From positions 931,501 through 995,500 of the forward strand of contig WVSR01000001.1 in NCBI GenBank assembly GCA_015689775.1: a stretch of DNA of 64,000 nt, in the 5' to 3' direction. Both the position numbers and the translations under genes were made by a program. The notes under the pieces are model-generated. The model was not told the origin of the DNA. It saw only the letters and a list, made by a program, of their open reading frames with translations, and made no database searches. Positions 38,445-39,301 of this stretch are shown here, one piece after another. The first letter of the stretch is position 1, and each line of letters begins with the position of its first letter. Source of the stretch: Rhodobacterales bacterium LSUCC0387. Lineage in GTDB: Bacteria; Pseudomonadota; Alphaproteobacteria; Rhodobacterales; Rhodobacteraceae.

Positions 38445-38529
38445 CCCATCCTATCCGTCGCTGCTATCTTCGGCGTTATTGGTAGCGAGATGCCCAAGAA
38501 GGGCAAGGGGAGTGCGAAAATTTCTTGCA

Positions 38530-38544
38530 GAACAAAAAAAGAAC
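38530..38544. promoter_or_regulatory. LexA (SOS) box, alphaproteobacterial GAAC-N7-GAAC type
   Basis: GAAC, seven A residues, GAAC: an exact match to the alphaproteobacterial LexA consensus. It ends 15 bp before the ATG of the ImuA-like gene, so LexA would cover its promoter or start region. It is 86 bp from the divergent aldo-keto reductase start. Confidence 0.8.
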
Positions 38545-38559
38545 ATTTAGTCTCACATT

Positions 38560-39219
38560 ATGCAAATCACCCATGCCTCTTTTGATCACATTACGGCCTC
38601 TGTGGCGCGCGCAAACCCGTCTTTGCGCCTTTTCGAGGGGTGTGATTTGCGGCTTGGGCGGGTGCATGAGTTTTGCGGCCCCGCACGGCGGCGTCTGGCG
38701 CTTTGGATGGCGGCGCGGATGGAGGGGGCGGTGCTTTGGATCCGCCCTGCGTGGCACCCTGATCATCTGCATATGCAAGCCGTGGCGGAGGAAATTGACC
38801 CCGCCCGCATGATCTTTGTCGCGCCTGAGCGGCGCGAAGACCTGTTATGGTGCATGGAGGAGGCTTTGCGCAGCGGGGCCTGTGAAACCGTGATGGCCGA
38901 AGTTCTAGAGCCACCCAACCTGACCGCGATCCGCCGTTTGCATCTGGCGGCTGAACATGCGGGAAAGCAGCCTTTCGCCGCGATTTTAACACCGCATCAT
39001 GGGGGCGCGGCTGGGGTTGAGACGCGCTTTTCCTTGGCGGCCAATCATGGGGCCTTATCCATGCAAGGGGCGCTTGCGGGAAATCTGCCCGCAGGTCTGG
39101 AGGGGCGCGCATGGCATATGCAGCGTTTGCGCGCGCGCCTTGCCCCGCCCGCCGCATGGCGTGTAACGCGCGCATCCTCAGGCCTTTGTGCGAAATCCAT
39201 CGCGCCCAGTTTTGTTTGA
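38560..39219 (+). CDS. ImuA-like RecA-fold protein under SOS control
   Basis: A 219-residue protein resembling ImuA, the RecA-related partner of ImuB and DnaE2 in the mutasome for damage-induced mutagenesis. Family-like segments are LGRVHEFCGP, DPARMIFVAPERREDLLW, MEEALRSGA and AIRRLHLAAEHAGKQPF. No intact Walker A is visible, as in ImuA. A LexA box lies 15 bp upstream, which independently supports a DNA-damage role. imuB and dnaE2, normally downstream, are absent here: metG follows. It is either a separated imuA or a paralogue. Confidence 0.68.
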   Translation: MQITHASFDHITASVARANPSLRLFEGCDLRLGRVHEFCGPARRRLALWMAARMEGAVLWIRPAWHPDHLHMQAVAEEIDPARMIFVAPERREDLLWCMEEALRSGACETVMAEVLEPPNLTAIRRLHLAAEHAGKQPFAAILTPHHGGAAGVETRFSLAANHGALSMQGALAGNLPAGLEGRAWHMQRLRARLAPPAAWRVTRASSGLCAKSIAPSFV

Positions 39220-39301
39220 CATCTTTGCACCGTCTAGCCATCCGCTTTGCTTTGGGTTAGACGCGAGAGCGAAGGAAATCATCTAAGACAAGGCGGGCGT
39301 G

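Follow-up and report, generated by a model that had tools for sequence, protein, structure and literature searches.

The imuA-imuB-dnaE2 mutagenesis cassette is found in Caulobacter and other bacteria, and the subunits of a complex are usually thought to benefit from such a common operon. Cassette types also occur in other Rhodobacteraceae (e.g. L172-L176, L178-L187 and L189-L191), the family in which we also place, as an assumption, the two species tabulated for the alphaproteobacterial SOS core. That core includes imuA-imuB-dnaE2 in the part of the source consulted (PMC3323433). According to the sections consulted of two further papers, ImuB is catalytically dead, ImuA binds its RecA-NT motif, and both proteins are required together with DnaE2 (PMC6511836, PMC12926913). 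Within the Rhodobacteraceae, imuB and dnaE2 are described in one operon in Phaeobacter inhibens (PMC10883770), and a cassette of the imuA-imuB-dnaE2 type is recorded on the 126-kb plasmid NC_009957 of Dinoroseobacter shibae (PMC9426580). Among the papers listed for these genes, judged by titles and abstract openings, there was no scattered or divided mutasome in this family, and priority is uncertain to that extent.

Here we describe an imuA gene in a 64-kb stretch of Rhodobacterales DNA (the window) whose presumed partners are encoded elsewhere in the genome. As in the cassette, the same three homologous proteins and LexA boxes are present; unlike the cassette, the genes form separate transcription units, DnaE2 is encoded as core and OB ORFs, and each unit has its own box. 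Mutasome parts are also encoded apart in mycobacteria, where, in the sections consulted, imuA'-imuB lie together and dnaE2 apart (PMC6511836), whereas here imuA and imuB are separated and DnaE2 is cut. The profile match, predicted fold, conserved boxes, co-occurrence, trees and divided DnaE2 favor the explanation that this imuA is, very probably, the SOS subunit of an ImuA-ImuB-DnaE2 mutasome encoded at four LexA-boxed places in this Rhodobacteraceae clade.

The box at imuA, GAACAAAAAAAGAAC, is the sole exact GAAC-N7-GAAC within the window. Just as the sequence-only reading had it, this box ends 15 nt before the ATG. The features of the locus are as follows, in window coordinates:

38525..38530, plus strand: predicted -35 element TTGCAG, read from the sequence, sharing base 38530 with the LexA box
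38530..38544, plus strand: LexA (SOS) box GAACAAAAAAAGAAC, between -35 and -10; exact in 72 of 74 relatives
38548..38553, plus strand: predicted -10 element TAGTCT, with a 17-nt spacer to -35; 65 of 72 relatives have TA here
38560, plus strand: A of the ATG, predicted as the start of transcription of a leaderless mRNA; placed by spacing
38560..39219, plus strand, stop codon included: imuA, 219 aa, ImuA-like by profile, alignment, predicted fold and tree

The next ORF starts at 39299 and is presumably metG, named here from its sequence; the earlier observation that metG rather than imuB or dnaE2 adjoins the gene holds. We considered a functional link between metG and imuA and rejected it: within the flanks examined, metG lies downstream on the same strand in 47 of 75 related loci, and within 400 nt in only five.

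By number, the box is unremarkable. A shuffled 64-kb sequence contains on average 1.32 exact GAAC-N7-GAAC sites, so a single box is not beyond chance, and the 2.51-Mb genome has 52 (25 + 27 on the two strands) against 161 (81 + 80) for a reversed-pattern control, a rough comparison given that the control pattern reads differently. Box count was accordingly discarded as evidence, since chance yields a similar number and there is no genome-wide excess. What decides is the conserved place of the box: an exact copy in the same orientation stands at imuA in 72/74 relatives, as opposed to 8/7014 control windows (100 bp, from the same loci, scored for either orientation). The relatives come from a collection scan that gave 75 related imuA loci, titled as Rhodobacteraceae, as genera that we assign to this family, or as alphaproteobacterial bins; all except L115 have enough upstream DNA. 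The two exceptions, L068 and L110, have one-mismatch boxes where the upstream DNA was read by eye. A conserved GAAC-N7-GAAC at the promoter, the mark of the alphaproteobacterial LexA regulon, is thereby found at imuA, and lexA and recA in the same genome also carry boxes. As a separate observation, an MmcB-like DNA repair ORF (PF06319; C3:92678-93172, L224) has an exact LexA box over its first codons as called, and is likely a further SOS gene judging from this sequence.

Alignment of the 72 promoters gives the consensus aTTGA-[GAACAAAa.aaGAAC]-ATgcTA..cT.., with the start codon next. TTGA stands immediately 5′ of the box in 63/72 promoters and TA at the -10 position, with the 17-nt spacer, in 65/72, both together in 57/72; with this placement, LexA would occupy the imuA -35/-10 spacer. 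Between the box and the first in-frame start codon there are 16 nt in 50/72 loci and 15–18 nt in 65/72, and with so nearly fixed a spacing the mRNA would start at or near the ATG. Shine-Dalgarno-like 4-mers between the box and the start occur in 4/72 relatives, and the imuA mRNA is probably leaderless. GANTC is seen within -40 to +45 of the imuA box in 24/72 related loci, compared with 9% of random windows.

The 219-aa product matches the NCBIfam profile NF033429 (ImuA_translesion) with an E-value of 3.5e-14 over 113 of 181 profile positions. The homology is significant, but the score of 53 bits lies below the curated 150-bit cut-off, which was reached in none of 20 chosen relatives and none of 14 control genomes, and the C-terminal tail is different, reading RRRAR..PP..W as against KNKSGT in the sister operon-type proteins. 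Neither Pfam nor a phmmer search of PDB sequences returned anything for this protein at E ≤ 1, and RecA was reached only by fold comparison. An alignment with 42 homologues picked for spread among the 75 relatives (40–81% identical to the window's ImuA) contains 34 invariant columns, and an AlphaFold model built from these 43 sequences has a pLDDT of 89.6. RecA accounts for 23 of its best 25 PDB fold matches, with E-values of 1.3e-7 to 9.1e-7 and TM-scores of 0.49–0.57 by query length, so that the core fold is predicted to be RecA-like. Unlike RecA, the protein is shorter and lacks the Walker A GKT loop, having instead the consensus CGPARR.LA at that place, where G40 and R43 are invariant among the 43 aligned sequences; a separate, boxed recA is present in the genome. 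ImuA1 and ImuA2 are likewise described as being without Walker A and B (PMC12926913, sections consulted). The protein groups with ImuA of intact cassettes in the tree and co-occurs with ImuB; in the window's genome at E ≤ 0.1 the ImuA profile matches imuA, recA and, weakly, a 458-aa frame. The two lines from which a DNA-damage function had been proposed have both gained ground, the operator through conservation and the ImuA-like protein through profile (below the cut-off), predicted fold and tree, and such a function appears well founded at the level of sequence.

A genome search for imuB and dnaE2, as had been suggested along with the sequence-only reading, located both away from imuA, and a third element, an OB ORF, was also found:

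C1:361145-362836, minus strand: imuB, 607 kb from imuA; its exact box is at C1:362856
C1:362894-362903: GACTCGACTC, in the imuB promoter
C1:309274-312183: dnaE2 core, with the one-mismatch box GAACAAAACGTGAAT 11 nt before its start
C2:342542-342904 (L221), minus strand: OB ORF, 120 aa, PF01336, with GAACAAAAATAGAAC, an exact box, 18 nt upstream of its start

Adjacent, co-directional genes, as in an imuA-imuB-dnaE2 operon, are absent at imuA, and among the 75 related loci, with flanks reaching at most 5 kb, none showed imuB or dnaE2 near imuA. The earlier description of a "stand-alone" gene is thus apt for the locus but not for the gene, which would be one part of a complete mutasome with scattered genes. 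In 20 genomes chosen for spread from the 75 relatives, ImuB and DnaE2 were each present in 20/20, and the ImuA profile matched at two places in 19/20, which by position and frame length we take to be ImuA and RecA; G001 had three, the third being a weak match in a 458-aa frame. The imuB box is exact in 19/20 (in L132 in the GTTC orientation) and has one mismatch in L139. At the dnaE2 core the box is exact in 3/20, has one mismatch in 15/20, always as GAAC-N7-GAAT, and is absent within 200 nt in 2/20, a count that omits the second, full-length dnaE2 of G010 (L162).

Across 121 genomes of the order, 79 had an ImuA match (E ≤ 1e-6) and 117 an ImuB match (E ≤ 1e-20), with ImuB present in all 79 genomes that had ImuA. 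The two genes adjoin in 33 of these 79 and are unlinked in 46, in a survey that includes many draft genomes and scores genes on separate contigs as unlinked; G126, with imuA and imuB 4 kb apart on opposite strands, was also counted as unlinked. Linkage divides by sequence: where identity of ImuA to the window's reaches 45% or more, the genes are unlinked in 41/41 genomes, and below 45% they are linked in 33/38. Among the 42 genomes without an ImuA match, the five that were read (L186, L187, L189-L191) have contiguous imuA-imuB-dnaE2 with a more distant ImuA. Partial arrangements also occur: imuA and imuB together, with dnaE2 not found in the locus DNA examined (G130); imuA and dnaE2 together and imuB separate (G101); and imuA separate from imuB-dnaE2 (G120, G133 and G108, the last of which bears the label 'split2' in the trees and has its dnaE2, next to imuB, cut off by the end of L193).

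DnaE2, too, is split. In the window's genome its product has 969 aa and stops after the HhH domain, and in the 20 relatives it has 953–1019 aa (1092 in one), ending 1–41 residues (in G004, 102) beyond the last aligned position. Operon-type DnaE2 continues into a C-terminal OB region, for which none of 21 scattered-type rows gave a match at E ≤ 1e-3. The separate OB ORF is 42–64% identical to the DnaE2 tails of 25/25 non-scattered rows, with that of G108 matched in part only, cut by the locus edge. An OB ORF with the identical 15-bp box was present in 3/3 scattered genomes examined. In the window's genome, a ferredoxin gene lies divergent from it. The G083 copy (L253; coordinates identify G083 with the L041 genome, strain XHP0102, which is also G001) is 91% identical and has the same box and divergent ferredoxin neighbor, with ATC where the start codon would be expected, so that its start is unsure. 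The G140 copy (L288; G140 has the same genus code as G096, which coordinates identify with the L042 genome, a Ruegeria) shows 69% identity across 105 residues, again beside ferredoxin, and has an ATG 2 nt past the box. The examined flanks of scattered-type dnaE2 or imuA contained no OB ORF matches. Mobile elements were considered as carriers and dismissed: viral contigs gave two 11-residue matches only, attributed to chance, and plasmid matches covered at most 65% of the query among the 30 listed of 799 records, where 22 of the 30 were annotated as error-prone DNA polymerase and the others carried no annotation.

Trees were built from 51 ImuA, 51 ImuB and 46 DnaE2 hand-selected rows (the last without G126, G089, G128, G035 and G130, whose dnaE2 lay outside the examined DNA). 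Scattered-type ImuB forms one side of a branch with 25 rows (support 99), and scattered-type DnaE2 one side with 21 rows (support 100). The scattered-type ImuA group (28 rows, support 96) contains, besides the 25 scattered genomes, the three hybrids G091, G117 and G118, which combine this ImuA with operon-clade imuB-dnaE2, so that co-evolution of ImuA with ImuB-DnaE2 is not strict. All were computed by a quick method that gives a single support value, DnaE2 under a simpler model, and for ImuA and DnaE2 there were warnings of long branches that meet.

The imuB promoter carries a further conserved element, GACTCGACTC, consisting of two tandem GANTC sites and starting 28–37 nt before the imuB box in 35/43 imuB upstream regions (among those covered being the window's own genome, L035, L120-L139 and L172-L185). 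By set, it was present in the own genome (1/1), 15/20 of the scattered set, 4/4 further scattered genomes, 5/6 detached operon-type and 10/12 embedded loci; L139 was counted by start-codon distance because its imuB box has one mismatch. It was found in 0/8 more distant arrangements (L177, L182, L186-L191) and 0/8287 random 85-bp windows. The 2.51-Mb genome has a single copy, at imuB, and two of a reversed control pattern, which is no excess, so that only its conserved place counts. GANTC is the site of CcrM, with GcrA as its reader, and conserved GANTC motifs at Caulobacterales imuA have been attributed to overlap with the LexA box (PMC7987155, sections consulted); the tandem pair here does not overlap the box. 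The genome encodes GcrA and a CcrM-type RAMA domain, and one may guess from the sequence that CcrM or GcrA controls the imuB promoter. No paper on imuB with GANTC was found in the collection searched.

In 12 operon-type loci (L172-L176, L178-L181, L183-L185) the imuB promoter and box lie within the 3′ end of imuA, where in most of them the promoter encodes DSTL..W..IKNK(S/K)GT. Identical residues are written in identical codons in 617/733 pairs within the embedded promoter, against 1906/4502 in the imuA sequence before it, and no other of 133 imuA windows exceeds 0.545. Codon identity is also high in the imuA tail past the box that overlaps imuB (454/567). The first in-frame imuB start codon is 2–26 nt 3′ of the box, so that the constraint 5′ of the box is not accounted for by overlap with imuB coding. 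The probability that the peptide alone would yield an exact box is 0.6–8% per locus, values that cannot be multiplied as independent since the 12 loci are related. In the hybrid G091, an imuA remnant 5′ of imuB is broken by stop codons and the promoter elements are intact. An exact box at the dnaE2 start was found in 0/23 operon-type loci scanned, with a one-mismatch site nearby in six, and within 110 bp upstream of the 12 embedding-type imuA genes two have an exact box, two a one-mismatch box and eight neither. Two histories would fit: an operon with a pre-existing separate promoter for imuB was later scattered, or scattered genes were re-joined over the imuB promoter. In L178, L184 and L185, a gene with a MCNLYSQTKSQDA start, which we take to be SRAP-like, extends to imuA on its 5′ side, and L178 and L185 have exact GTTC boxes 655–663 nt upstream of imuA.

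Other explanations of the imuA locus can be weighed against these data. In this clade ImuA may have been repurposed, perhaps to inhibit cell division in the SOS response or to modulate RecA, and may have ceased to act with ImuB-DnaE2. The complete separation of imuA from imuB in the 41 genomes with the closest ImuA would agree with this, as would the changed C-terminal tail and the existence of hybrids with operon-type imuB-dnaE2. We nevertheless consider repurposing unlikely, as every genome with an ImuA match also has ImuB, a second ImuA that could serve it turned up in none of the 20 genomes checked, and LexA boxes are shared by the parts. Much less probable still is that imuA is the decaying remnant of a cassette since lost; the absence of an adjoining partner gene would be expected of a relic, but the 34 invariant columns among 43 homologues, and the open frames and conserved promoter in relatives, are not. 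That the box is fortuitous and the gene outside LexA regulation is hardly credible, for while chance supplies about one box per 64 kb, it would not place one at imuA across the relatives in fixed orientation and at a near-fixed spacing to the start codon. A dispersed SOS mutasome with a working ImuA is therefore the most likely reading of the sequences.

In such a dispersed mutasome, DNA damage would lead RecA filaments to provoke self-cleavage of LexA, which would bind the boxes until then, and the imuA promoter, with the box filling its -35/-10 spacer, would open and give a probably leaderless mRNA. ImuA, as a RecA-like pseudo-ATPase, would bind the RecA-NT-like motif of the dead Y-family ImuB, which would dock DnaE2 on the clamp for error-prone bypass, giving ImuA a role in mutagenesis. 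The scattered parts would assemble after LexA cleavage as in cassette systems, with the OB protein rejoining the DnaE2 core as a subunit. A fuller version, to which we incline by a small margin, comprises four units under LexA control, with DnaE2 naturally cut into a catalytic core and a separately encoded OB subunit, tandem GANTC sites at imuB that may tie induced mutagenesis to CcrM/GcrA and replication timing, and, in sister genomes, an imuB promoter overprinted on imuA, by which part of the ImuA tail would be shaped by promoter DNA.

A mutagenesis machine encoded at four places under one regulator would allow the dose and timing of each subunit to evolve alone. The arrangement makes it testable which subunit limits SOS mutagenesis and whether DnaE2 functions with a separate OB protein, and the promoter within imuA of the sister genomes may illustrate a way for an operon gene to have an SOS promoter of its own.
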